Of a DNA stretch of 64,000 bases, positions 1 through 60,531 are shown piece by piece. The stretch lies in contig NZ_NMZQ01000001.1 of the NCBI RefSeq assembly GCF_010093125.1, forward strand, positions 1 through 64,000, given 5' to 3'. A program made the position numbers and the translations under genes. The notes below the pieces were generated by a model, which saw nothing but the letters and a program-made list of their open reading frames with translations, was not told the DNA's origin and did not search any database. The stretch's first letter is position 1. Every line of letters begins with the position of its first letter. Source of the DNA: Veillonella sp. R32 (GTDB taxonomy: Bacteria; Bacillota; Negativicutes; Veillonellales; Veillonellaceae).

Positions 1-3000
1 ACTCATATTCAGTCAGGCCGAACATTAGGCGTGGCTTTATCTGTGTTGGCATTGTGTGCGGGGCTTACAGCTGGTGTAAATGCAGCAACTCCGTATTATA
101 GTGTGAATGATTATAATGCAAAGTTAGCTCCGCTAGGCAATGCAAATGGTGATGCTGCCGGTGGTATTGGTTCTACCGCAGCGGGTATAGGCACTTCTGT
201 TAAAACTAGTAGTCAGTTGCAAGGAGCTACTGCCACAGCGGTAGGTATGCTAAATACTATTGATGCATCTACCGGAGGTATGTTTGATGGCGTTGCTAAT
301 GCTGTTGTTGGTGCGGCTAATACAACACAGAATGCAAATGCAACATTAATTTTTGGCGCAGGAAACTTAGTTACCAACTCATATGGCGCAGTAATGATAA
401 ATCCTGAAACCATTAATCCGACGGACCCAGTTGGATTAAGCAAAACGTTAGCTGGTGCTGTAAAAGATAGTGGTGGACAAATTTTAGTTGTTGGTGGCGC
501 CAATGTTGTTGATCATGCACGCTTTTCATCTATTACAGGGGTTAGTAATAACTTGACTGGTACTACAGATAAAGATAGTGAATATAACTTTATTTCTGGT
601 GCTAAAAACACTGTTACTGGCTCTGACCATGCGTATGTAATTGGTACAGATAATGAAGTAACAAATAGTACTGGTAATACTCTAATTGGTGATAATCGTA
701 CCTTAACGGGTGTTACTAATTCAGTGATTTTAGGTTCTGGTTTAAATAGTGATACTAAATTAGGGGCTAAGGATGTTTCTAATGTAGTTGTAGCTGGTTA
801 TAAGGCAAATGCTACTGTAGCTGGTGGTGTAGCTATTGGATCTGATTCTATTGCTAATGTAGAAGCTGGTAAGATAGGTACAGCACCAACAAATACTACT
901 GTAAGTGATGATGATAAGAAAAGTGCTACTTGGACATCTACCTTAGGTGCTGTATCTGTAGGTTATGCAGAATATAAGGATGAGAATGGTACAACAGTTC
1001 CTGCAGGCACTCGCCAAATTACAAATGTAGCAGCTGGTACACAAGACACTGATGCAGTTAACTTGGCACAGTTGAATAAAGTAGCTAGCTTAATCAATAC
1101 AAGCAATACGGACAATGGTGTTAAATATGTGTCTATAAATTCTGACGCTGATGGCAATAAAGATAACTTAGGTGCAAGTGTTAACAATTCTATGGCTATT
1201 GGCCCTAATGCTAGCACAGCAGCTGTAGATAGCTTAGTGATTGGTAGTAGTACTATCAAAAATACAGGCACATTCTCTAAAGTAATTGGTAATGGCAATA
1301 CCCTTTCTAGTACAGACGCATTTACCGCTGAGGACAGTAAAGTATTTGGTGATAATAATACAATAACAAATAGTAATCGTCAGTTAGTATTTGGGGATAA
1401 TAATATAGTGAGTGGTCGTGATCAGGGCACAATATCTCCTGAAAAACGAATTACAGTATCTGATGTAATCATTGGAAAAGGGAATAATATTACAGGTAAT
1501 GAGACTTATTGGTCAGGAAATGAATCACTCACTGTTATTGGTAATAATAATATTGGCAAAAATCCAGCTTCTGGCATTGTTATTGGGAATAATCAAAGTT
1601 TAGATGTAATATCGGCATCTGTTGTTATTGGCAGTTTAAAAGAGTCGATAAAAAATCAAGATTGGTATGGTGGCGGTAGTAATGTTGTTATTGGTCATCA
1701 AGCAATTAGTAAATCTAGTGGCAATGTTTTACTTGGAAATTCTACTGTTGCAGGTGGTGGGTTTCAAACGATAGCAGGTGCTGATACTAAGACTGGATAT
1801 AGTGAGGATGGTAAGTCTGGACTATTAACGGCTGTATATGGCGCATTTAATAATATTGAGCATGGATATGAATTTGATAGCGAGGATATGGATGCTACAG
1901 CGAGCAGTATTGTAGGCTCATTAAATCATACGAATAGAGCTCGTGGTACAGTCATTGTGGGGGCTGGGAATGAAGTATTAAACTCTAATGGAGAAGGCGA
2001 TGCTTCTAGCCAAACAATGGAAATAACGGGATTAATGCAATTTGGTAGCGAATATATACTTGAAATTGGGGATACTGATCATAAATCTTTACTAGAAAAA
2101 GAACTTAATTTGCTTAAATATACTGGCGGGGCTTCTGTAGTGTTAGGGAGTGCTAATAAATCTGATTATGCTAATCGTTCACAAATATTTGGCAATGGAA
2201 ATATTTTAGAAGGTAAAGATAGTATTATTAGTTCATATAATACTATTAGTGGATATTCTAATATAGGTAATAATATCAGTCGAACTGCAATTATTGGGTC
2301 TGGCAATACAATTTCTAATACAACGGATAATATTGTACTAGGGGATTATCATGAAAAATCAGGTGGCGAACATAATGTTATTTTAGGATCTCAGAAATAT
2401 ACAGAAACAGCTAAGAAAATTAAAAATAATAGTTGGTTTGGCGAAATTGAATATGATGTAGTTATGCATACCCCTCAAAAACCTCACGCCAAAGATATCT
2501 CCAACGCTGTAATGCTTGGTTATAACACTGATGTATCTATCAACGGTGGTGTAGCGCTTGGTTCCGAGTCTATTGCAGCAACAGATTCTAGCGTACAAGG
2601 CTATAATCCAATTGCAGTAGAATCTACTACAACCGCTCTTACAGCTAGAGCAGCTGCTGATGCGTCTAGTGATGCTTCTGCATTAGGCACACCTACCTGG
2701 ACATCTACCTTAGGTGCTGTATCTGTAGGTTATGCAGCTGATGGAGATACTCCTGCAGGCACTCGTCAAATCACAAATGTAGCAGCTGGTACAGAAGATA
2801 CTGATGCTGTAAACGTAGCACAATTAAAAGCAGCTAAAGTAACTGTTACAGGGGGGACTAATATTGCTTCTGTAGAGTCTACAGCCACTTTAGATGGTGG
2901 TACTGTATATACAGTTAACGCCAAGGACATATATGTTACAAGTGCTACACTTAGTGATGGTACGTTAACAATTAACCAGAATGAAGGGAGCCCTATTAGA

Positions 3001-6000
3001 GTAACGGGGTTGGCAACTACTTCGGATGTGGAAAACAGTAAAGTGCATTACTACTCCACTAAAAGTGATAAAAAAGCAGACGGCTCTAACTTTGCAAATG
3101 ATGGTGCTAAGGCTAATGATTCTATAGTAATTGGGATTAATTCTAGCAACTCGCAAGATGCGGTTAACTCGATTGTATTAGGTAATGGTACAACATTAGA
3201 AGGCTCTAAGAACGGTACGAATGGAAAAGTTAATAGTAGCGTTGTAGTAGCAAATGGTGCGACTATAAATGGTATTTATAACAGTGTACTAGCAACAGAT
3301 TATAATAATAGTCCTTCAGGAGTAGCCACTCCAACGACTGTGAAGGGGCAACATAATACAGTTATTGGTGCAGGTAATACAGTAAGTGGAGACCAAGGTG
3401 TAACGATTGGTACACTTAATAATGTTATTGCGGCCTATGCCATTGGCCAAAATAATACAGTAAAGAGCAAAGGTTTAGCATTTGGTTCTAATAATACTGT
3501 CGGTCAAACTAGTGAAGATGGCGGTATTGCTATCGGTAGAAATCTTACTGTTGAAGGTTACGAAGGCGTAGCTATTGGTGGAGAAACTCAAGCGTTAGCT
3601 GATTATTCAATTGCCATTGGTAGTGGTATTCGCGCATCAGAACCAAGTACTGTTGTTGAAAAAGCAGCTACACAAGGTATTGCTCTAGGATATGGAGCTA
3701 AAGCTAAAGTTTCAGGTGGTATAGCCTTAGGGGCAGGCTCACAAGCCACTACGGCTGCCAAGGTAAAAGGATATGATCCAAGTACAGATGCGCAATCTAC
3801 TAATACGACTGGCGTGTGGCAATCTGGTAAGGGTGCCTTATCTATAGGTACGCCTAATAATACTCGCCAAATCACAGGCGTAGCCGCTGGTTGGCAAGAT
3901 ACTGATGCTGTTAACGTAGCACAATTAAAAGCGGCTAAAGTATCCCTTGTAGGAGGAGATAATATTGCCTCTATCAGTACAGCATTTACTCCTGAAAATG
4001 GCACAACATATACAATCAACGCAGTAGATACTGATACAACTATTACTAAGGGCGAAGTAACATATAATGGCTCTGCAGGTAAACTAGTTTTAACAGATAG
4101 TAATGATAAAACTCTTGAAATTACTGGTTTGAGAGATCTTGATACAACAGGCGTTACTTTAAATGGTGACACATTAACCTTTACACGTAATGATGGCACT
4201 ACGTATACTGTAGGCGGTTTAGCTACAGCTACTGATTTAGCGGCAAACAAGATTCATTACTACAGCGTAAATGGTCCTGCTACTCCAGGTGGCAACTACA
4301 ATAATGATGGCGCTAAAGGTGACAATGCCTTAGCTGCTGGGGTAGGTGCTAGTGCGGTGGCTCACAATAGTATCGCTATTGGTAATAAGGCTTGGATTAT
4401 TGATAGTAACGGTGGTAAAGGCAGTGGTGACATTGCTATTGGTAATGGTGCTAAGGTTGAAAATTATGCAGACCAAAGTGCTGGTATTTCCTTAGGTCAA
4501 AATGCATATGTTGAAAATATGGCAGGTAAGCAAGAAGCGATTTTTGCCCTTGGTCAAACTACCTTTAGTGGTAACTTCTTATCCAAAGCTCGTATTCCAG
4601 CCGATCCATCTAAGGTAGCAGCTGGTATATCCATTGGTGAAAATTCCTATGCTCGCTCTGGTAGTTTAATGGTTGGCACGCATAAGTATATTGGTAAATT
4701 AGGTGATGTAGATATTGATACTTCTACAGAAGAAACTCGTAGAAAAGCCGGTGTTGGTGTTAATAATACAACGATTGGTACCAATAGCTTTAATGGCGGT
4801 ACGTTCTCGACTATTACAGGCGCCTATTCTATTACTACAACTAATTATGCGGGCGGACGTAACTCGATTGATGCAGGCAAGAACTTTGGCTCTACGATTA
4901 TGGGCTCCTTGAATAGCATTGAATCAGCTACTGCGGAAAATTCTAGTTCTGGTGTAGCCAATAGTGTAGTTGGTTTTGCTAATAAAACGGCTAACGCTAA
5001 TGGCTCGTTGATATTTGGTGCAGGCAATGAGATTACTAACTCTGTAACAACTATTTCCATTCCTGGTACTGGGTTATTAGATAGTTCTTCAGCAGCCGAT
5101 TCTGCTAAAGAGTTGCAAGATAAAATGAAGGCTCTTGTTCAACGCTCTAACAGCGGCGGTGCAACCCTCGCTATTGGTGGCGGCAATAAAGCTGATTACA
5201 CCCGTGCTTCCTCTATCATTGGGGTTAACAATACCTTAACTGGTACTGCTAATGATATTAGTGAATATAACTCCATTATGGGTTATAAGAATACTGCTGA
5301 AAATGTTTCTAATGTAACCGTAGCAGGTATTAACAACAAGATTTCAAATACTACAAGCGCTGTAGTATTAGGTGATAATCACAAAGTAACTGGTGCTAAC
5401 AATAGTATTGTCATTGGTTCGGCTGATAAAGAAACTGAATTGACTGCCACTGATGCGGTTGTAATTGGTCGCAATGCAAATGTGGAAAAAGTAGGTGGTG
5501 TGGCTCTTGGTTCTGATTCTATTGCAAATATAGATAAAGGTGTATTAGGTTATATTCCTACTGGTAAGACATTAACTGATGCTGATAAAAAGAGCCCAAC
5601 TTGGACATCTACATTAGGTGCTGTATCTGTTGGTGATGTGGCTAATGGTAAGACGCGTCAAATTACAGGCGTAGCCGCTGGTAAAGAGGCTACTGATGCA
5701 GTTAACGTTGCTCAATTACAAGCGGTAGCTGCAATTGCAGAAAATGCTGGTACAGCAGCCGGTAAACATACCGTTGTAAGTGTTAACGGTGGCGATACAG
5801 CTACTAATACAACATATGTTGGTGATGGCAATTTACAAATTAACGTTACAAGCAAAGATGGCCAAAACAGATATGATATTAAGTTAAGTGACAAGCTCAC
5901 TATTGGTACTAAAGGTGAACCAGGCAAAGATGGCCAGCCAGGTACTAAGGGGAAAGCAGGTAGCATCACTATTATTGGTGAAAATGGTAAAGATGACAAA

Positions 6001-7944
6001 GGCAATGAACTTCCAGAAGGCAACAATACAAGTGCTAATATTTCCGTAAAAGACGGTGCCAAAGGTCTTGATGGTAAAGATGGCGTAACTCGTATTGTCT
6101 ATCTAGATGAGACTGGCAAAGTTACTCATGAAGTAGCGACTATGGATGATGGTTTAAACTTTGCTGGTGATGATGCTAAACCTATTCCTAAAAAGCTTAA
6201 TGAACAGTTAGATATTAAAGGTGGAGCTGATACTGAGAAATTAAGTGATAATAATATTGGTGTTGTTAGTGAAACTAAAGATGGAAAAACATATTTAAGT
6301 GTTAAATTAGCTAAAGATTTAACTGGCCTTACTAGCATCAATGTAGGTGGTACAAAAGGGGTTGACGGAAATTATATTGGTGGCATCACAATCAATACTG
6401 GTGGCATCAACATGGGTGATACACAAATCACTAATGTACGTAGCGGTGCAACTGGCGAAGATGAAAATGGCAAACCAGTATATAATAACAATAAAAATGT
6501 AGCTAATATTGGGGATGTCATTGCACTTGTAGGTAAAGAAGTTGAAGCAGCTAAGGTAACTGCTGGCGATAATATTTCTGTAGAAAATAATAAAGTATCG
6601 CTTAAAGAAGATATTACGCTTGGTAAAGATGAAGCTAATCAAGTGGCAATTAAAGGCTCCGACGGTACGATTACAGCTGGCTCTGGTGCAAATCAAGTCG
6701 CTCTTGATGGTAAGAATGGCCAAGTAACGATTGGTAACGCTGGCGATCAAATCATCATGGGCAACCAAGAAGTAAGCCCAATTAAACCAGATGGTAGTTC
6801 GTTAGGTACAAAAGAAAATGGTCAATTCATTACAGGTCTTGATAATACAACTTGGAACCCTAATTCTAACGGTTATGTACCTGACCGTGCTGCTACTGAA
6901 GGACAATTAAAAGATATTGCTGATAAGATTAATAATATTGATACAGCAGTAAAAGATTCTAGTCGTGTATTCGCTGGTGATGATGGCGCGAAAGTAACCG
7001 TTAAGAATGGTGACACCTTACATCTTAATGGCGGTGCTGATGCAGCTAACTTGTCTGATGGTAATATTGGTGTAGTAGCACATCTAGATGAACAAGGCAA
7101 TACTAAAGATATTTTAGATATTAAATTATCGAAAAACTTAACAGGTTTAGAATCTGTAACTACAGAAAACTTGACTGTTAATAAAGGCGCTAATATCGGT
7201 GATGTATCTATTGCTGGTGATACAATTACAGTAGGTAAAGGTGATAGCCAAACTATTATCAATGACAATTCTGTAAAAACTGGCAATACGACTATCAACA
7301 ACGATGGCTTAACAGTTAAAGGCCCTGAAGCATCGAAAGACATTACAATCCAGAACAATAATGTTAATATGGGTGGCAATGTAATCCATAATATTGGTGA
7401 TGGAGTTGAACCTGGTGATGCTATCAACAAAGGTCAATTTGATAAAACAATTAACGATATTGGTAATGGCATGAATCATATGTCTAACCGCATTAGCAAA
7501 TTGGATCGTCGTGTAGACCGTGTTGGTGCAGGGGCTGCAGCGTTGGCTGCTTTACATCCATTAGAATTTAGCCCAGAAGCTAAATGGGAAGTATCGGCTG
7601 GCGTAGGTAACTATAAAGGGGCTAATGCAGTAGCAATCGGTGCGTTCTATCGTCCAAATGGTGATACTATGTTTAGCATCGGTACATCCTTAGGTGGCGG
7701 TGAAAACATGGTTAACGCTGGTGTAACGTTACGTGTTGGTGATGGTGAAACTGAAAATTATCCAGCTCGTAAGGTAATGGCACAGCAAATTAAAGATTTA
7801 CAATCCGTTGTAAATACGCAAAATGAAAAGATTGAACAATTAACTCAATTGGTTAATACGTTAGTAGGTGCTAATCAGCAAATTCAGCCAGTAGTAAGTG
7901 CTCCACAGGCACAAGCTGATGCTGAAGAAGCACAACAAGCTTAA
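1..7944 (+). CDS. Trimeric autotransporter adhesin (YadA-like, type Vc), 5' partial
   Basis: The frame is open from base 1, so the true start lies upstream; a GTG at 31 is only the first in-frame start codon. The visible N-terminus is the end of a signal peptide, a hydrophobic run ending in VNA-A. Most of the 2,640 residues are LbR/YadA-head repeats of the VVIGxxN / AIGS type. Head blocks end in neck motifs of the type TRQITNVAAG..DTDAVN near residues 327, 910, 1277 and 1875 (counted from base 31). A Gly-rich GEPGKDGQPG stretch lies near 1960. A predicted coiled coil (SNRISKLDRRVDRVG) leads into the four-strand YadA anchor at about 2485-2570. Unlike YadA, the chain continues about 65 residues past the barrel with a heptad-like stretch and a Gln/Ala-rich tail. 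The family is exported by Sec, trimerises in the outer membrane and binds host or bacterial surfaces; the ligand cannot be read from sequence. Confidence 0.95.
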   Translation, partial: THIQSGRTLGVALSVLALCAGLTAGVNAATPYYSVNDYNAKLAPLGNANGDAAGGIGSTAAGIGTSVKTSSQLQGATATAVGMLNTIDASTGGMFDGVANAVVGAANTTQNANATLIFGAGNLVTNSYGAVMINPETINPTDPVGLSKTLAGAVKDSGGQILVVGGANVVDHARFSSITGVSNNLTGTTDKDSEYNFISGAKNTVTGSDHAYVIGTDNEVTNSTGNTLIGDNRTLTGVTNSVILGSGLNSDTKLGAKDVSNVVVAGYKANATVAGGVAIGSDSIANVEAGKIGTAPTNTTVSDDDKKSATWTSTLGAVSVGYAEYKDENGTTVPAGTRQITNVAAGTQDTDAVNLAQLNKVASLINTSNTDNGVKYVSINSDADGNKDNLGASVNNSMAIGPNASTAAVDSLVIGSSTIKNTGTFSKVIGNGNTLSSTDAFTAEDSKVFGDNNTITNSNRQLVFGDNNIVSGRDQGTISPEKRITVSDVIIGKGNNITGNETYWSGNESLTVIGNNNIGKNPASGIVIGNNQSLDVISASVVIGSLKESIKNQDWYGGGSNVVIGHQAISKSSGNVLLGNSTVAGGGFQTIAGADTKTGYSEDGKSGLLTAVYGAFNNIEHGYEFDSEDMDATASSIVGSLNHTNRARGTVIVGAGNEVLNSNGEGDASSQTMEITGLMQFGSEYILEIGDTDHKSLLEKELNLLKYTGGASVVLGSANKSDYANRSQIFGNGNILEGKDSIISSYNTISGYSNIGNNISRTAIIGSGNTISNTTDNIVLGDYHEKSGGEHNVILGSQKYTETAKKIKNNSWFGEIEYDVVMHTPQKPHAKDISNAVMLGYNTDVSINGGVALGSESIAATDSSVQGYNPIAVESTTTALTARAAADASSDASALGTPTWTSTLGAVSVGYAADGDTPAGTRQITNVAAGTEDTDAVNVAQLKAAKVTVTGGTNIASVESTATLDGGTVYTVNAKDIYVTSATLSDGTLTINQNEGSPIRVTGLATTSDVENSKVHYYSTKSDKKADGSNFANDGAKANDSIVIGINSSNSQDAVNSIVLGNGTTLEGSKNGTNGKVNSSVVVANGATINGIYNSVLATDYNNSPSGVATPTTVKGQHNTVIGAGNTVSGDQGVTIGTLNNVIAAYAIGQNNTVKSKGLAFGSNNTVGQTSEDGGIAIGRNLTVEGYEGVAIGGETQALADYSIAIGSGIRASEPSTVVEKAATQGIALGYGAKAKVSGGIALGAGSQATTAAKVKGYDPSTDAQSTNTTGVWQSGKGALSIGTPNNTRQITGVAAGWQDTDAVNVAQLKAAKVSLVGGDNIASISTAFTPENGTTYTINAVDTDTTITKGEVTYNGSAGKLVLTDSNDKTLEITGLRDLDTTGVTLNGDTLTFTRNDGTTYTVGGLATATDLAANKIHYYSVNGPATPGGNYNNDGAKGDNALAAGVGASAVAHNSIAIGNKAWIIDSNGGKGSGDIAIGNGAKVENYADQSAGISLGQNAYVENMAGKQEAIFALGQTTFSGNFLSKARIPADPSKVAAGISIGENSYARSGSLMVGTHKYIGKLGDVDIDTSTEETRRKAGVGVNNTTIGTNSFNGGTFSTITGAYSITTTNYAGGRNSIDAGKNFGSTIMGSLNSIESATAENSSSGVANSVVGFANKTANANGSLIFGAGNEITNSVTTISIPGTGLLDSSSAADSAKELQDKMKALVQRSNSGGATLAIGGGNKADYTRASSIIGVNNTLTGTANDISEYNSIMGYKNTAENVSNVTVAGINNKISNTTSAVVLGDNHKVTGANNSIVIGSADKETELTATDAVVIGRNANVEKVGGVALGSDSIANIDKGVLGYIPTGKTLTDADKKSPTWTSTLGAVSVGDVANGKTRQITGVAAGKEATDAVNVAQLQAVAAIAENAGTAAGKHTVVSVNGGDTATNTTYVGDGNLQINVTSKDGQNRYDIKLSDKLTIGTKGEPGKDGQPGTKGKAGSITIIGENGKDDKGNELPEGNNTSANISVKDGAKGLDGKDGVTRIVYLDETGKVTHEVATMDDGLNFAGDDAKPIPKKLNEQLDIKGGADTEKLSDNNIGVVSETKDGKTYLSVKLAKDLTGLTSINVGGTKGVDGNYIGGITINTGGINMGDTQITNVRSGATGEDENGKPVYNNNKNVANIGDVIALVGKEVEAAKVTAGDNISVENNKVSLKEDITLGKDEANQVAIKGSDGTITAGSGANQVALDGKNGQVTIGNAGDQIIMGNQEVSPIKPDGSSLGTKENGQFITGLDNTTWNPNSNGYVPDRAATEGQLKDIADKINNIDTAVKDSSRVFAGDDGAKVTVKNGDTLHLNGGADAANLSDGNIGVVAHLDEQGNTKDILDIKLSKNLTGLESVTTENLTVNKGANIGDVSIAGDTITVGKGDSQTIINDNSVKTGNTTINNDGLTVKGPEASKDITIQNNNVNMGGNVIHNIGDGVEPGDAINKGQFDKTINDIGNGMNHMSNRISKLDRRVDRVGAGAAALAALHPLEFSPEAKWEVSAGVGNYKGANAVAIGAFYRPNGDTMFSIGTSLGGGENMVNAGVTLRVGDGETENYPARKVMAQQIKDLQSVVNTQNEKIEQLTQLVNTLVGANQQIQPVVSAPQAQADAEEAQQA

Positions 7945-8210: not shown

Positions 8211-8310
8211 TTAACAGACGCTAGTAGAAGGTAACAAAAGTTAGCAGAAATTAGTAGACGTTAGCAGAAACTTGTAAAAGTTAGCAAAAGTTAGTAGAAA
8301 TTAGTAGAAG
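8211..8310. repeat. Ten tandem 10-nt repeats in the thrC leader
   Basis: Ten consecutive 10-nt units run without a gap from 8211 to 8310, with consensus TTAGYAGAAR. Examples are TTAGCAGAAA (twice), TTAGTAGAAA and TTAGTAGAAG. The array ends 15 nt before the thrC ATG. Together with the terminator at 8038 it makes up most of the 380-nt gap after the adhesin; the rest of the gap shows only the TATAAT at 8118. Confidence 0.85.
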
Positions 8311-10737: not shown

Positions 10738-12717
10738 ATGTATTTAGCAGCCTTAGCGATTGAAAATTTCCGCAATTTGAATCATATGCAATTGGTTTTT
10801 CACGATCAGTGTAATTATTTGATTGGTGAAAATGCTATTGGGAAGTCAAATCTGTTAGCCCTTATTGCGATTATTACAGCTGGTCAAACCTTGCAGGCTT
10901 CTGACTTTTTTGATGTGACGAAGCCCGTTAAGGTGCGTCTAGAATTAGTGGTAGACCCTCAGGAAATGTTGCCCAAGCGGTTTCGGGGCGCTGTTAATGG
11001 GGGTCGCATTTTATTAGAATGGGAACAATTGGCCGTTATGGCTAAGCCTCAGTTATACGAGGTATTGACAGAGGATAAACGGCGACAGGTGCCGTTACGA
11101 GTCTTGCACTATATTCCCTATTTGGCATTGCGTGATATTGGTCTATATCAATTTGATAGGGTGAAACTTGGTGGTAATCCTAGTAGAATGACTGCTGGTG
11201 GGAATTCTAGCAGAGTAAATGTTGGTAGTCATCCTAGTAGAATGACTGAGAGTGTTAATTCTAGTAGCGCGGCTGATGGTGACGATGTTAGCAGTGTGCC
11301 CATTGAAGCTTCGTATGAGGCGTTGCGTGATTTCTTAGGGCACGCTTTAGAACGAGTGCTGGCACAAGAAGGTTCGGCTTCGCATAAATCTATGTCGCGC
11401 ATTGCTTTGCGCATTCGACAATTTCAGCTCGTATTGCCACACTTACCAGATTATATGAGTATTGTCTTAGCACAGCTGACGCAGTGGCCTTTATTAGAGC
11501 GTGGTTCTTTGACTGATAAAAAAGCGCTTAAAACAGGTATTGCCTCTGGCGTGTTTGCTGGATTTTATACGCCTGATGCGTTGCGCCTCATTACTATGGT
11601 GGTATTGCGTTTGGTGAAACAAATTTTCTCCTTAGTTGAAGGGGGAAAGTTTGAATCCCATATAATCATGAAACGAGGCAAGCGCTATTTACCGCTTATC
11701 GTCAGTTTGGATGAAGTGGAAGCCCATTTAAATCCGCTCATGCAACGGGCTATGGTGGATTATTTCAAAGAAATTTTAGCCAATGAAAATATTGGCTTTT
11801 TACGAATTTTAAAAGACGTATTTGCCGTGGATGGTCTGTTAGGACAATTGTTTATTGTTACCCATTCGGCAGAAGTGTTGTCTGATGATTATCGGCAGAT
11901 TATTCGCTTTTATCGGCAACCGTCGGGCTCTGTGAAGATTGCCTGTGGCGTTACGTTTGAAGTGTCGTCAGAAGCGGAGGAGCACTTAATTGCTTATTTT
12001 TCAGCGGTGAAAGAAGCGTTGTACACTCGCTGTGTTATGATTGTGGAAGGGGAAACGGAATATAGTAGTTTTCGGCAGTTTGCTAAAACGTTGGGCATCC
12101 CGTTCGACTTCTATGGCATTGGGCTGATTAATGCGCGGGGTCAAGGGTCGATTAGTCGCCTTGTAGAATTGTTTAACCGTTTTGACATTCCCGTTATCGC
12201 TTTGTATGACCGAGATGTGCGCACCGAGGCTAAGGCTTCTAAAAAGCAGGTCTATTTCACCGATACGCTTTGTTATGAATTTGATTTAGTGCATCATTTA
12301 ATCCGTCGGAATCGCCGTGCTATTTTAGATGATATTGTGCGCATGGTGGTGAATTTAGAAGGCGGTTCTTCCTTGGTGAGTAAGAAAGCTATTACTCAAG
12401 GGGTGGACAAATTAATTAAATATGCAAAAGCACAAAATGAATCGCTCCAAGGCTTAGTAAATCGGGCGTTTCACGAACGAAAGTTGAATTCGATTCCCAA
12501 TCGAGAGCTTCATTTGCTAGAAATTTATTATTTTAGCTGGCTTTTTTTTCAAAAAGGGATTACTATAGGTAAATGTATTGCGTATAATATAAAGGAACGG
12601 GAAGATATTCCGCCAGCCTTTGTAAAAGTTATAAAAAAAGCACAGCAGTTGGCGCAACAACAAGATGCGTGGCTAGCTGTGGAAGAGGAGACGAAATATG
12701 GAAAACAAAACATATGA
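10738..12717 (+). CDS. OLD-family ATPase with C-terminal TOPRIM nuclease domain
   Basis: ABC-type ATPase fused to a TOPRIM domain, the layout of OLD (overcoming lysogenization defect) nucleases. Walker A is GENAIGKSN (about 30-38), Walker B is LIVSLDEVEAHL (about 320-331), and FIVTHSAE (about 371) is the switch histidine region. The TOPRIM glutamate is in MIVEGETE (about 434) and the acidic pair in ALYDRD (about 488). Residues 145-180 are a Ser/Gly/Asn-rich insertion encoded by four 27-nt repeats. The last 20 nt overlap gnd. OLD proteins act in phage defence or DNA repair. No UvrD-like GajB partner lies beside it, so a Gabija system is not supported. Its role here is unknown. Confidence 0.88.
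   Translation: MYLAALAIENFRNLNHMQLVFHDQCNYLIGENAIGKSNLLALIAIITAGQTLQASDFFDVTKPVKVRLELVVDPQEMLPKRFRGAVNGGRILLEWEQLAVMAKPQLYEVLTEDKRRQVPLRVLHYIPYLALRDIGLYQFDRVKLGGNPSRMTAGGNSSRVNVGSHPSRMTESVNSSSAADGDDVSSVPIEASYEALRDFLGHALERVLAQEGSASHKSMSRIALRIRQFQLVLPHLPDYMSIVLAQLTQWPLLERGSLTDKKALKTGIASGVFAGFYTPDALRLITMVVLRLVKQIFSLVEGGKFESHIIMKRGKRYLPLIVSLDEVEAHLNPLMQRAMVDYFKEILANENIGFLRILKDVFAVDGLLGQLFIVTHSAEVLSDDYRQIIRFYRQPSGSVKIACGVTFEVSSEAEEHLIAYFSAVKEALYTRCVMIVEGETEYSSFRQFAKTLGIPFDFYGIGLINARGQGSISRLVELFNRFDIPVIALYDRDVRTEAKASKKQVYFTDTLCYEFDLVHHLIRRNRRAILDDIVRMVVNLEGGSSLVSKKAITQGVDKLIKYAKAQNESLQGLVNRAFHERKLNSIPNRELHLLEIYYFSWLFFQKGITIGKCIAYNIKEREDIPPAFVKVIKKAQQLAQQQDAWLAVEEETKYGKQNI
11170..11277. repeat. Four in-frame 27-nt repeats inside the OLD-family gene
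   Basis: Units start at 11170, 11197, 11224 and 11251. Units 1 and 3 (NPSRMT / HPSRMT) resemble each other more than units 2 and 4 (NSSRVN / NSSSAA), giving a higher-order 54-nt period. The repeat encodes a 36-residue low-complexity linker between the N-terminal ATPase lobe and the rest of the protein. Confidence 0.9.
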
Positions 12718-14122
12718 ATTTGGTTTAGTTGGTTTGGCTGTTATGGGTCAAAATTTAGCACGCAACGTAGCGCACAAAGGGTTCAGTATTGCTGTGTATA
12801 ACCGTACACCTCAAAAAACGGATGAATTCTTGGCTAAATTTGGTCATGAAGGTACTATCGGTGGTGCTCACAGTCCCGAAGAGCTTGTTAAGATGTTGGC
12901 TAAACCTCGTAAAATTATGTTTTTAGTAAAAGCGGGTCAGCCAGTGGATGATATGATTGCAGCCTTTTTACCATACCTTGATAAAGGGGATATTTTGATT
13001 GATGGTGGTAATTCTCATTTCAGTGATACTCGTCGTCGCAGTAAAGAATTAGAAGCTAAAGGCTTCCGTTTCTTAGGTGTAGGCGTGTCAGGTGGTGAAG
13101 AAGGCGCTTTGAATGGCCCAAGCTTGATGCCAGGTGGTAATGAAACGTCGTATAAAGAAGTAGCGCCTATTTTTACAGCTATTGCAGCGCAGGTAGCCGA
13201 TGGCCCTTGCTGTAGCTATGTAGGCGATGATGGGGCTGGTCACTATGTTAAAATGGTGCACAATGGCATTGAATACGGTGATATGCAGCTTATTTCAGAA
13301 GCGTATTTCATGATGAAAGAATTGCTTCATATGAGTGATGATGAAATGGGCGATGTATTTGCTGAATGGAATAAAGGCTTATTAGATTCCTACTTAATTG
13401 AAATTACGTCTAAAATTTTAAAAGTAACGGACAAAGAAACGGGCAAACCATTATTGGAAATGATTTTGGATAAAGCAGGCCAAAAAGGGACTGGTAAATG
13501 GACAAGTCAAGAAGGGCTAGAACTTGGTGTGCCAATTCCAACCATTGCAGAAGCTGTATTTGCTCGTGGTATGTCTGCGTATAAGACTGAACGTGTGGCA
13601 GCGGCTAAACAGCTTAAAGGGCCTGAAGGCGAATATACAGGTGATAAGAAAGCCTTTATTGATGCCATTCATTCTGCTTTGTATGCTTCTAAAATTTGCT
13701 CCTATGCGCAAGGCTTTGCGTTGATTAAAGCGGCGGCTAAGGAATATAACTGGAATATTAATTTCGGTGACATGGCACTTCTATGGCGTGGTGGCTGTAT
13801 TATTCGTGCGGTGTTCTTAGAAGATATTAAAAAAGCCTTTGAACGCAATCCACAATTAAGTAACTTGTTGTTAGATCCATTCTTCATGGAAGCGATTGAA
13901 GAACATCAAGCTAAATGGCGTGAAGCCATTATTGAAGCTAAACGCTTTGGTATTCCGACTCCAGCCTTCTCGGCTTCTTTGGATTACTATGATAGCTACC
14001 GTCGTGAAAGCTTGCCAGCTAACATGATTCAAGCACAACGTGACTTCTTTGGTGCTCATACCTATGAACGAGTAGATAAAGAAGGAATTTTCCATACGGA
14101 ATGGGAACAGGAATTGAAATAA
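12698..14122 (+). CDS. gnd: 6-phosphogluconate dehydrogenase, decarboxylating
   Basis: Oxidises 6-phosphogluconate to ribulose 5-phosphate and CO2 with NADP+, in the oxidative pentose phosphate pathway. The 474-residue length is that of the homodimeric long form. The dinucleotide fold has GLAVMGQNLARN (10-21) and an NRTP turn typical of NADP preference. The catalytic segment GHYVKMVHNGIEYGDMQ lies near 181-197 with the conserved Lys, His, Asn and Glu. The ATG at 12698 follows GAGGAGACG and lies inside the 3' end of the OLD-family gene. Transcription ends at the hairpin element immediately downstream. Confidence 0.97.
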   Translation: MENKTYEFGLVGLAVMGQNLARNVAHKGFSIAVYNRTPQKTDEFLAKFGHEGTIGGAHSPEELVKMLAKPRKIMFLVKAGQPVDDMIAAFLPYLDKGDILIDGGNSHFSDTRRRSKELEAKGFRFLGVGVSGGEEGALNGPSLMPGGNETSYKEVAPIFTAIAAQVADGPCCSYVGDDGAGHYVKMVHNGIEYGDMQLISEAYFMMKELLHMSDDEMGDVFAEWNKGLLDSYLIEITSKILKVTDKETGKPLLEMILDKAGQKGTGKWTSQEGLELGVPIPTIAEAVFARGMSAYKTERVAAAKQLKGPEGEYTGDKKAFIDAIHSALYASKICSYAQGFALIKAAAKEYNWNINFGDMALLWRGGCIIRAVFLEDIKKAFERNPQLSNLLLDPFFMEAIEEHQAKWREAIIEAKRFGIPTPAFSASLDYYDSYRRESLPANMIQAQRDFFGAHTYERVDKEGIFHTEWEQELK

Positions 14123-14128
14123 ATGAAT

Positions 14129-14205
14129 AAAGCCTGCCATTACTACTTTTGCTCGCTGCGAGTCAAGCTCGTAAGGTCGCTGCAAGTAGTAATGGCAGGC
14201 TTTTT
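14129..14205 (+). terminator. Hairpin element 1, also terminator of gnd
   Basis: Outer arms AAAGCCTGCCATTACTAC and GTAGTAATGGCAGGCTTT pair perfectly and end in TTTTT. The interior holds the shared core GAGTCAAGCTCGTAAGG and GGTCGCT. It starts 6 nt after the gnd stop codon. Confidence 0.85.
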
Positions 14206-14238: not shown

Positions 14239-14315
14239 AAAAAGACCGTTCCCTATTTTTGCTTCCTACGAGTCAAGCTCGTAAGGTCGCTACAAATAGG
14301 GAACGGTCTTTTTTT
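14239..14315. repeat. Hairpin element 2, left flank of the AbiE island
   Basis: Arms AAAAAGACCGTTCCCTATTT and AAATAGGGAACGGTCTTTTT enclose the same core as element 1. A 55-nt stretch matches the reverse complement of element 3 (16481-16554) at 51 of 55 positions. A-tract and T-tract on opposite sides let it work as a bidirectional terminator between gnd and the convergent abiEii gene. It is only 33 nt from element 1. Confidence 0.85.
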
Positions 14316-14334
14316 GTGCCTCGGGGGGAATATA

Positions 14335-15189
14335 TTAAGACTTACTTTGCATTATTTTTTTTACTAGTTTTGAGAGTATATAATAGGCATCTTCGAATTT
14401 TACTGATTTTGCATAAGCATATTCTTCTTGATAAGATTTCCACTGGTTTTGTAAGCTTATACTTGATTCTATAGATGAAAGGATTCTAGAATAATTTTCA
14501 AAAATAAAAAAGGAATTTCTTTTGGTGGCAGTAGATAATAATGCTTGATAGAGTAATGAATAATCGATGTCTTGAGATTTTAATTTTGCTAATATGTAAA
14601 TATCATAATAGTCTCTTGGTCGAGTGCTTTGTGTTCCTCTAGATAAAATTGTTTCTATTTTTTCAGCTAATATTGTAGTTAGGTTATAAGCTAATATTTT
14701 AATAGATCTATTTTCGAACAAAAGGGGATACTCATATGTAATCTCTTTTGGAGTTATTTTATCACCTGTTGTTATATCAATTTTTAAATCTACTGATAAT
14801 TTAGTTTCATCATATGTTGCTTTTAAGGAAACCCTATACCCACTGTAGTCATCTTGCTCTCTAATATTTTTGATAGATTGAAGTGAAAATAAGATATTAT
14901 CGTTTAAGGGAATTTTTATAATATCTAATATCATTGTTTGGATACTTTCTGATGAAACAGGATAATTTTTTATTGTTACATCCATATCCATAGTTGCTCG
15001 AGAATTTAGCCCTGCTATTGAAGCAATGAGAAATCCACCTTTTACTATAAAATAATGGACATATATTGATTTTGATATTCTTTCTAGAAAACGCTCAAGC
15101 ATAAAATTTTGTAAAACAAGTTGTGCTGTTATATGTTTTTTTTCAGCAAGTTTTTTTATTTGAGCTTTAAATTGCATTAAATTTTTCAT
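14335..15189 (-). CDS. abiEii: AbiEii-type nucleotidyltransferase toxin
   Basis: Protein of 284 residues of the AbiEii/AbiGii family, the toxic half of AbiE abortive-infection (type IV-like) systems. The nucleotidyltransferase core is visible as KGGFLIA (50-56), followed by R64 and the acidic DMD (68-70). Further acidic residues lie in DLKIDITTG (134-142), and AEKIETIL with RPRDYYDIY (175-198) is typical of the family. Family members inhibit growth by transferring nucleotides, and some modify tRNA; the target here is unknown. The gene overlaps its upstream partner by 4 nt (ATGA), implying translational coupling. It is markedly more AT-rich than gnd beside it, suggesting acquisition by transfer. 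Confidence 0.9.
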   Translation of the reverse strand: MKNLMQFKAQIKKLAEKKHITAQLVLQNFMLERFLERISKSIYVHYFIVKGGFLIASIAGLNSRATMDMDVTIKNYPVSSESIQTMILDIIKIPLNDNILFSLQSIKNIREQDDYSGYRVSLKATYDETKLSVDLKIDITTGDKITPKEITYEYPLLFENRSIKILAYNLTTILAEKIETILSRGTQSTRPRDYYDIYILAKLKSQDIDYSLLYQALLSTATKRNSFFIFENYSRILSSIESSISLQNQWKSYQEEYAYAKSVKFEDAYYILSKLVKKIMQSKS

Positions 15190-15776
15190 TGTAGTACCTC
15201 AATATAAGGTTTTATTTTTTTTTCTACTTTTAGTATTTTTGCATATTCTGATAAGAGCGGAAGGTTTCTTTTGTAGCTTGCCATATATTGCTTAAAGGCA
15301 GCTGTGATTAATTGAATATCTACTCGATTTGAAGGTTTAACTATATCACATAATGTACGCTCGGCATTATATGTTTTTACTAAATTACCAGCTGGTGTTG
15401 TAGTAGTAATTATCCCTAGATTAAATTCTGTATTTTTCACTCGATTACAACGGTAGCCTTGATTTCTAGGGGCTGTTACATTATAGGAAGAGGGGAAAGT
15501 GAGTGTCAAAATGGCAGGCGTTCGATCAGTGAGGCCTAATAAAAAAAGTGCACTGCCTAGAGAAAAAACACTTTTTTTGTATCGTGTTTGTGCATTTAAG
15601 AACTCATCATCCCAGACTTCAGGTAATATGTATACGCCACGAGCTGTATGTTCTAGTTTTCCTATTTTTACTAAATAATGTAAATGGCCACGTGAAATTT
15701 TTTCTTCAGTAATCATAGCTGAAGTAATTGTCCCATTATTTTTATAAGCTAATTTTAGTACTTTAGACTGGCTCAT
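15186..15776 (-). CDS. abiEi: AbiEi-type antitoxin and autorepressor
   Basis: Protein of 196 residues with an N-terminal winged-helix region (about 1-60: ITSAMITEEKISRGHLHYL, then a GKLEHTARGVYIL wing) and a C-terminal AbiEi-like domain (TFPSSYNVTAPRN, then ERTLCDIVK). AbiEi proteins neutralise the AbiEii toxin and repress their own operon by binding inverted repeats. A strong promoter inside a perfect inverted repeat lies directly upstream (15797-15844). The ATG at 15776 is preceded by AGAGAGAGAG, serving as a weak ribosome binding site. Order antitoxin then toxin, with a 4-nt overlap, is standard for AbiE. Confidence 0.88.
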   Translation of the reverse strand: MSQSKVLKLAYKNNGTITSAMITEEKISRGHLHYLVKIGKLEHTARGVYILPEVWDDEFLNAQTRYKKSVFSLGSALFLLGLTDRTPAILTLTFPSSYNVTAPRNQGYRCNRVKNTEFNLGIITTTTPAGNLVKTYNAERTLCDIVKPSNRVDIQLITAAFKQYMASYKRNLPLLSEYAKILKVEKKIKPYIEVLQ

Positions 15777-15796
15777 ACTATCACTCTCTCTCTATT

Positions 15797-15844
15797 TTTG
15801 ACTTTCTTGCATTAATTATAAAAATAAAATGCAAGAAAGTCAAA
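15797..15844 (-). promoter_or_regulatory. abiE promoter embedded in a perfect inverted-repeat operator
   Basis: Arms TTTGACTTTCTTGCATT (15797-15813) and AATGCAAGAAAGTCAAA (15828-15844) are perfect 17-bp inverted repeats with a 14-bp spacer. On the minus strand the upstream arm supplies the -35 box TTGACT (15838-15843). The -10 box TATAAT (15815-15820) lies 17 bp further on, in the spacer and arm junction. A repressor on this palindrome would cover the whole promoter. Confidence 0.88.
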
Positions 15845-15913
15845 TTTGTAGAACCGGTGAATAAATTATATATATTAAGAAGGTCATTAACATAATACTA
15901 ATAAAGAATTTAA

Positions 15914-16327
15914 TTAAAAACTAGTAAAGAAAATAGGTTAAATAATGGTTCGCCAGATTTACTGTTTTTGCCAGATAATGATGTTGATAATTATACCAAT
16001 GTGATAATGCGTATTCAGCCAGAGTTTTTAGAAGAGCCTGAATATGTATATAAGAAGGTGAAACGCAATACACTTACAGTCAATGAAAAATTAGATAATT
16101 CCCATAAAAAAGAGAAACCTCGTAAAAAGGTTTCTTCTGTAGTTGATGAAATTTTAAATTTAATGAAAGCAAATCCTCAAATTACAGCCGTTCAAATTGC
16201 GGATATCTTAGGGAGCATTACTGCGGCCGGTGTACGCTATAACATTGCCAATTTAAAAGCTAAAGGCGTCATTGAACGAGTAGGCTCCACTAAAGCAGGT
16301 ACTTGGGTCGTATTGAAAGACTTATAA
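15914..16327 (+). pseudogene. 3' remnant of a gene with a C-terminal winged helix
   Basis: The open frame begins after a stop at 15911 and has only a poor TTG start at 15968 (119 residues from there). Readable sequence starts as LNNGSPDLLF and goes on to a Lys-rich linker. A winged helix follows (ILNLMKANPQITAVQIADIL, then GVIERVGSTKAGTWVV). This resembles the last part of ATP-binding AlbA_2/RecG-like transcriptional regulators, where an NGSPxPxF motif precedes a C-terminal winged helix. The N-terminal domains are absent upstream, so I read this as a decayed fragment. Expression as a small DNA-binding protein cannot be excluded. Confidence 0.6.
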
Positions 16328-16430
16328 ATTTAAATAGTAATTTTTATAAGTATTTTTCTTAGAGTTCAATTTTTAGAACACAAAAGAAGAGCGAATATTG
16401 TTTACAGCACTCATCTTTTTCCATCTAGTA

Positions 16431-16609
16431 AAAAAACTAGCCACTATTTGCAGATTTCAGAAAAAAGTATTTTTGTTGTGAAAAAGCCCATTCCCTATTT
16501 GAAGCGACCTTCAGAGCTTGACTCGTAGGAAGCAAGAATAGGGAATGGGCTTTTGCGTTAACACATTAAGACTTTAGCTTGACAAAGCAAAAATAGTGGC
16601 TAGTTTTTT
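16431..16609. repeat. Decayed hairpin element split by element 3
   Basis: Left arm AAAAAACTAGCCACTATTTG (16431-16450) pairs with right arm CAAAAATAGTGGCTAGTTTT (from 16588). The inner flanks still resemble the element family: CTATTTGCAGATTTCAGA on the left, and AGCTTGAC next to AAGCAAAAATAG on the right. Between them lies about 115 nt containing intact element 3. The right arm touches the stop codon of the FAA-hydrolase gene (16608-16610). The 280-nt gap from 16328 is otherwise without a gene. Confidence 0.7.
16481..16554. repeat. Hairpin element 3, right flank of the AbiE island
   Basis: Arms AAAAAGCCCATTCCCTATT and AATAGGGAATGGGCTTTT enclose the family core in reverse orientation (GCGACCTTCAGAGCTTGACT). 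The reverse complement matches element 2 at 51 of 55 positions. The outermost base pairs differ (GCCCA/TGGGC against GACCG/CGGTC), yet pairing is kept in both. Confidence 0.85.
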
Positions 16610-34045: not shown

Positions 34046-34137
34046 TAGCATATAAAGAGAAGCCCCCCTTCTTCACGACCCGAGTTGCTTTGCAACAATG
34101 GTCGCTACAGAAGGTGGGCTTCTCTTTTTGTATGCTA
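34046..34137. terminator. Hairpin element 4, terminator between convergent genes
   Basis: Outer TAGCAT/ATGCTA and AAAGAGAAGCCC / GGGCTTCTCTTTTT arms pair. The interior has CGACC/GGTCG and GTTGC-TTT-GCAAC stems and ends in GGTCGCTAC, a string shared with elements 1-3. It lies between yvrJ and the convergent DUF805 gene. Confidence 0.75.
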
Positions 34138-60402: not shown

Positions 60403-60421
60403 GCATAGGCGAACGGTCATT

Positions 60422-60531
60422 TGTAATGCAAAATGAGCTTTACTGTAATGCAAAATGGGCTTTATTGCAATGCAAAATGAGCCTTACTGTAATGTAAAAC
60501 TATCTTTTTTGCAATGCAAAACGGTCCTTTT
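60422..60531. repeat. Five tandem 22-nt repeats between lysS and serS
   Basis: Units start at 60422, 60444, 60466, 60488 and 60510 with no gaps. All have TGYAATGYAAAAY at the start and a T-rich end. Units 1-3 are nearly identical; 4 and 5 have drifted. They fill most of the 220-nt gap after the lysS terminator, leaving about 80 nt for the serS promoter. Confidence 0.92.

Follow-up and report, generated by a model that had tools for sequence, protein, structure and literature searches.

Hairpins around an AbiE island in Veillonella sp. R32 probably belong to a lineage-specific family of terminator-type elements with a conserved loop

Near-identical hairpins in inverted orientation on both sides of a defence locus raise the question of whether they are the ends of a mobile unit or terminator repeats that happen to flank it. 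We addressed this for an AbiE island in Veillonella sp. R32, using the first 64,000 nucleotides of contig NZ_NMZQ01000001.1 (hereafter the window) from a genome of 2.24 Mb in 83 contigs. The features of the locus, with scores of the covariance model R2 for the hairpins, are listed below.

12698-14122, plus strand: gnd (6-phosphogluconate dehydrogenase), left flank (Pfam PF00393, 9e-137)
14127-14205, plus strand: hairpin E1, sense to gnd, with its own 22-bp stem sequence, a perfect inverted repeat (83.2 bits)
14239-14315, plus strand: hairpin E2, sense to gnd, 20 nt from the abiEii stop (90.8 bits)
14335-15189, minus strand: abiEii, predicted toxin (DUF1814 nucleotidyltransferase) of a type IV toxin-antitoxin pair (PF08843, 3.5e-38; PADLOC AbiEii, 2.1e-94)
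15186-15776, minus strand: abiEi, antitoxin/regulator (PF13338, 7.2e-8; PADLOC AbiEi, 5.5e-64)
15797-15844, no strand: 17-nt inverted repeat upstream of abiEi (15797-15813 with 15828-15844), read from the sequence
15911-16327, plus strand: C-terminal remnant of an SLFN_AlbA_2/HATPase_c_4 gene, about 138 codons with one stop, including a 119-aa winged-helix part
16431-16460, minus strand: first half of hairpin E4, left arm and decayed core, pairing with 16575-16609 and aligning with the family core
16480-16556, minus strand: hairpin E3, sense to the FAA hydrolase gene, nested in the E4 core (88.3 bits)
16575-16609, minus strand: second half of E4, extending to the FAA hydrolase stop codon
16608-17528, minus strand: FAA hydrolase-family gene, right flank, convergent with gnd (PF01557, 2e-69)
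34053-34127, plus strand: hairpin E5, between two convergent genes, no island cargo (41.8 bits)

The first-pass annotation had described E2 and E3 as near-identical inverted copies, and its figure was reproduced exactly: 51 of 55 positions were identical in the best 55-nt stretch, and E2 (14239-14313) agreed with the reverse complement of E3 (16481-16554) at 66 of 74 ungapped positions (89%). A 23-nt core occurred three times in the window at three or fewer mismatches (0.00 expected; 100 shuffles). E1 is a full third member that starts about 110 nt before E2, its model match beginning 7 nt after the gnd stop. E4 is a fourth, split copy, whose halves (16431-16460 and 16575-16609) form a long stem around E3. 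Because these halves pair and their loop parts can be aligned with the core of the family, E3 is placed inside the core of E4, which reads as one clear nesting event. The predicted stability of E1-E3 ranged from -37.7 to -45.8 kcal/mol. The apical hairpin of E5 differs in sequence from those of the other members.

The cargo between E2 and E3, annotated at first pass as abiEi, abiEii and a truncated gene, was borne out by the Pfam and PADLOC matches and by identification of the truncated gene as the AlbA_2 remnant, and no transposase was found among the ORFs between the two hairpins, again in agreement with that reading. The two AbiE homologues lie in one operon, overlap by 4 nt and, together with the upstream palindrome, resemble the known AbiE type IV toxin-antitoxin and abortive infection system (PMC3985639); the pair is ordinary. 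The 17-nt inverted repeat at 15797-15844 is the probable AbiEi operator, and a comparable palindrome lies upstream of abiEi in three congeners (G002, G003 and G006). The remnant shares 85% identity over 119 aa with an intact 534-aa SLFN_AlbA_2/HATPase_c_4 protein of Veillonella intestinalis DSM 105313 (G004; L105:5446-7050), whose gene occupies the same site; the window gene has lost its first ~396 codons.

Other features of the window were also recorded. A 659-aa OLD/GajA-like ATPase-TOPRIM protein adjoins gnd (10738-12717; PADLOC GajA, 1.4e-112), and its gene contains 27-nt tandem repeats (11158-11292). Since large ORFs similar in size and position adjoin gnd in congener G001 and in V. intestinalis, this gene is probably not part of the island. 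A long run of diverged coding repeats at 491-7076 (families D1, D3, D4, D7-D10 and D13) likely represents a large repetitive surface protein, and short tandem repeats with units of 10 nt and 22 nt lie at 8211-8310 and 60421-60530, respectively.

To delimit the hairpin family, we built covariance models from 8 elements (R1, alignment A5) and then from 55 (R2). Copy counts are based on R2, because R1 also matched some plain terminators without the core (G013 and G020). MAFFT alignments of untrimmed elements (A1 and A4) misaligned the stems and were not used for R1, and a 15-mer search recovered only part of the family. All family counts are lower bounds, as up to 150 first-look candidates were scored per genome and direct scanning of the fetched loci added copies. 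With R2, hairpins were detected in at least 20 of 28 genomes of the taxonomic family, comprising at least 6 of 7 genomes of the window's genus and at least 13 of 14 genomes of a sister genus, g4, which is probably Veillonella proper. Among the candidates scored, genus g3 gave one weak R2 match and the six g2 genomes gave none. At least 18 copies were present in the window genome, and genomes with copies held at least 2-24 each.

Members of the family share a Watson-Crick stem of 17-22 bp, unrelated in sequence between members, around a conserved internal-loop core of ~35-47 nt. The core runs from approximately TNGCTC through a small apical hairpin, which also covaries, to approximately GTCGCTNCA, and its unpaired positions are conserved across unrelated stems and two genera. 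In alignment A7, which was fitted to the structure, all 27 pairs varied on both sides and 94% of cells were paired, compared with 57% in shuffles, and slid controls collapsed; the 8-sequence alignment A5, made without structure, gave the same picture (98% paired vs 75%). Four or more consecutive T residues occurred at the 3' foot of 57 of 71 copies. Rfam held no matching family, and the open-access papers searched, a set that excludes most subscription journals, contained no account of one. The family is apparently undescribed so far and would be a variant of intrinsic-terminator-type repeats.

Further features were noted at several loci. In G002 (L203:2313-2797), about four tandem copies of another repeat (around GTAGCGAGCGAAGCAATGCGG) lie between two elements. 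In g4 species (L261:2020-3130, L262 and L265), elements are embedded in nested inverted repeats of greater length (e.g., CATTTTATAATGGG...CCCATTATAAAATG) with outer arms that vary from copy to copy, and half-elements occur there too. The window genome also contains long-stem, long-loop hairpins that were not called by the model and have core-like loops (L229:16104-16187, L233:16630-16702 and L230:926-981); the family may be wider than the model calls.

We further examined genomic position in 71 distinct copies (orthologues collapsed by sequence; ORF-based gene calls of at least 100 aa). Most copies (55/71) lay downstream of the 3' end of a sense gene, 13 were antisense between the end of one gene and the start of the next (most of them 140-500 nt upstream of that start), one lay between two gene starts, two were at locus edges, and none was within an ORF. 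A gene 3' end within 60 nt was in the sense orientation for 33 copies and antisense for 2. All 38 opposite-strand neighbour pairs no more than 900 bp apart were convergent, a count that includes orthologues and hence pairs that are not all independent. The inverted arrangement of E2 and E3 is therefore the usual layout of the family rather than a property of the island. Ten adjoining genes encoded an enoyl-CoA hydratase, an IMPDH/GMP reductase-family protein, Na/alanine symporters, an MFS transporter, GMP synthase, ETF alpha, malic enzyme, a dicarboxylate symporter and a sulfite-reductase-family protein, among others; given this diversity, with no obvious shared function, the family sits at unrelated gene ends. 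The genus-wide search for the core, proposed at first pass, thus yielded many copies without a link to cargo, which counts against mobility. The alternative offered there, that common terminator repeats merely flank the island, gained support from the at least 18 copies in this genome and their placement at gene ends.

The gnd/FAA-hydrolase junction was then compared among relatives. An FAA hydrolase profile search of genome contigs returned one Veillonella (V. intestinalis) and many distant homologues, and gnd and the FAA hydrolase gene were convergent in 5 of 6 congeners. In G001, the ~100 nt between them hold no cargo and are occupied by one element, which answers the empty-site comparison suggested at first pass. 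In V. intestinalis, a pair of elements lies on either side of the AlbA_2-domain gene, and one of these elements has shrunk to a 44-nt half; the orthologue of E2 there (G4a) is 94% identical. The cargo consists of a HipA-like gene and abiEi-abiEii in G002, abiEi alone in G003, and a HipA-like gene, abiEi and a Cro/C1-type regulator in G006, and R2 found no element at the junction in any of these three genomes. Their abiE genes run in the gnd-to-FAA direction, opposite to those of the window, which could reflect either a change of orientation of a single old locus or more than one acquisition. The window proteins are 62% (AbiEi) and 63% (AbiEii) identical to those of the congeners, and among the 40 genomes searched, these congeners hold the closest relatives of the window AbiEi. 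Unlike the typical AbiE pair (PMC3985639), two congeners have only the antitoxin gene at this junction (L125:3598-4188 in G003 and L126:5992-6582 in G006); in these orphans, abiEii is gone except for its first few codons after abiEi.

Toxin-antitoxin and defence-like cargo thus recurs at the gnd/FAA junction, and the elements are not needed for it, because three congeners hold abiE genes there without one. The strain comparison had a second side, in that all cargo of the element-bearing clade lies between element copies and its empty site has exactly one element; this part is in keeping with mobility, while the element-free abiE genes of the three congeners oppose it. In the window, abiE is bordered on one side by E2, which lies 20 nt from the abiEii stop, and on the other by a stretch at ~15850-15960 that, compared by eye, resembles the sequence upstream of the AlbA_2 gene in V. 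intestinalis. As this second edge is apparently the old AlbA_2 upstream region, abiE has an element at one edge only.

Since the junction holds cargo with or without hairpins, E1 and E2 are most likely terminators of gnd, and E3 and E4 those of the FAA hydrolase gene. We consider it very probable that the hairpins are intrinsic-terminator-type elements of the Veillonella lineage, ending these two genes with the cargo in between. E1 and E2 would stop transcription of gnd, E3 and E4 would stop that of the convergent FAA hydrolase gene, and E2 and E3 are inverted because the two genes converge. Cargo would enter the convergent junction, disrupting no gene, and come to sit between the terminators of both genes; the arrival of abiE needs no element. 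From structure, T-runs and position, we infer that transcription terminates at the hairpins, in both directions where genes converge. However, plain termination leaves three features unaccounted for: the conservation of the core, the local homogenisation of cores and the nesting of E3 in E4. The 13 antisense copies, which end no annotated gene, also count against it.

Recombination or mobilisation ends, between which the E2-E3 unit moves, inverts or swaps as a block, would account for the 89% inverted likeness of E2 and E3, the one element left at the empty site and the two different cargoes found between elements at one site. Yet abiE occurs at the same junction without an element in three congeners and has an element at one edge only in the window, most family copies bracket no cargo, and the ORFs between E2 and E3 include no recombinase. 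Simple inversion of the E2-E3 island was rejected, as it would also have flipped the AlbA_2 remnant, whose orientation is kept. We regard such ends as highly improbable, and the boundary reading offered in the first-pass annotation is not supported in view of the copies at unrelated gene ends and the element-free abiE genes. A phage or plasmid origin was likewise rejected, with only short, weak matches that lacked elements, and the core pattern was not found in viral contigs. The hairpins could instead be small mobile elements whose ~35-47 nt core inserts into the loops of existing terminators or palindromes, or reaches them as a copy made by template switching. In many same-genome copy pairs, cores agreed at 94-100% of positions but outer stems at only 25-50%, core similarity was 0.78-0.84 within a locus compared with 0.52 between loci, and E3 lies within the E4 core. 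Nevertheless, no orthologous stem was found both with and without a core, and local duplication would suit the low copy number and the mostly local similarity. PF01797, the sole transposase family sought genome-wide, was absent from the window genome and from 5 of 6 other congeners, and G042 has many PF01797 fragments yet no detected element; small mobile elements therefore seem rather doubtful to us.

A further possibility, which we consider less likely than not and which can coexist with the terminator explanation, is that the core acts as an RNA regulatory site: at the tip of a 3' terminator, it would bind a protein or ligand and tune termination or 3'-end stability. The conservation of unpaired positions over unrelated stems in two genera and the sense bias of 33 to 2 despite a palindromic stem favour such a site, and terminator-like stems with conserved tips have been called unusual and possibly regulatory (PMC8632094). 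Against it, the adjoining genes have no obvious common function, Rfam offers no family, and G-U pairs are not favoured over A-C, unlike in a stem selected only as RNA. Among 1321 outer-stem cells, we counted 23 G-U and 37 A-C, and 12 of each in one-directional contexts; all these numbers are small. Because G-U does not exceed A-C, and pairing maintained only as RNA should favour G-U, upkeep of the stems at the DNA level is likely. The obvious candidate mechanism is replicative template switching, a process able both to generate perfect stems and to repair them (PMC8794818). In contrast to the alike cores, outer stems of copies at different loci of one genome matched at 34% on average; local duplication with stem renewal and the copying of cores into existing hairpins would both fit this pattern. 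With the stems being palindromic, the strand bias suggests either RNA-level reading of the core or a directional process of insertion or copying. A combined scheme, to our minds unlikely, is a self-renewing hairpin in which a loop module of 35-45 nt is copied locally in convergent orientation, a fresh perfect stem is formed or corrected through template switching or insertion into palindromes, and the sense-strand tag is read by a factor.

REP/BIME palindromes of Escherichia and Pseudomonas are extragenic, palindromic, clustered in both orientations and biased towards 3' ends, all of which the hairpin family resembles. In REPs, however, stem and foot are conserved in sequence, and RAYT/Y1 transposases are required; a RAYT/REP origin was rejected here, with stems unrelated between loci and no PF01797 in the window genome. 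Rho-independent terminators likewise place a hairpin with a T-run at the 3' ends of genes, often where two genes converge, but the present family has a 17-22 bp stem and a ~35-nt loop of conserved sequence. TransTermHP would miss it, because its published limits are loops of 3-13 nt and 59 nt in total (PMC1852404). The DNA-uptake-sequence terminators of Neisseria and Pasteurellaceae are likewise a conserved genomic repeat in terminators, frequent between convergent genes; there the repeat forms the stem and has hundreds to thousands of copies (PMC1852404), whereas the hairpin family has free stems, a conserved loop and at least 2-24 copies per genome. The terminator-tip RNA motifs HRC-8-4, guanidine-IV and HMP-PP similarly combine a strong terminator-like stem with conserved tip nucleotides and are discussed as gene-control switches for the nearby gene (PMC8632094); the present hairpins differ in lying downstream of gene ends and in having no Rfam match.

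Overall, these findings dispose of a misleading clue: defence cargo between inverted, near-identical hairpins is not necessarily delimited by mobile-element ends if the neighbouring genes converge and both have a terminator from one repeat family. At the gnd/FAA junction, the gain, loss and orphaning of toxin-antitoxin genes can be compared on a small scale within one genus. Moreover, a terminator-type family whose Watson-Crick-perfect stems vary in sequence around a fixed loop lies outside the limits of a standard finder, and it offers a test bed for the upkeep of palindromic stems in DNA and for the information held in terminator loops.
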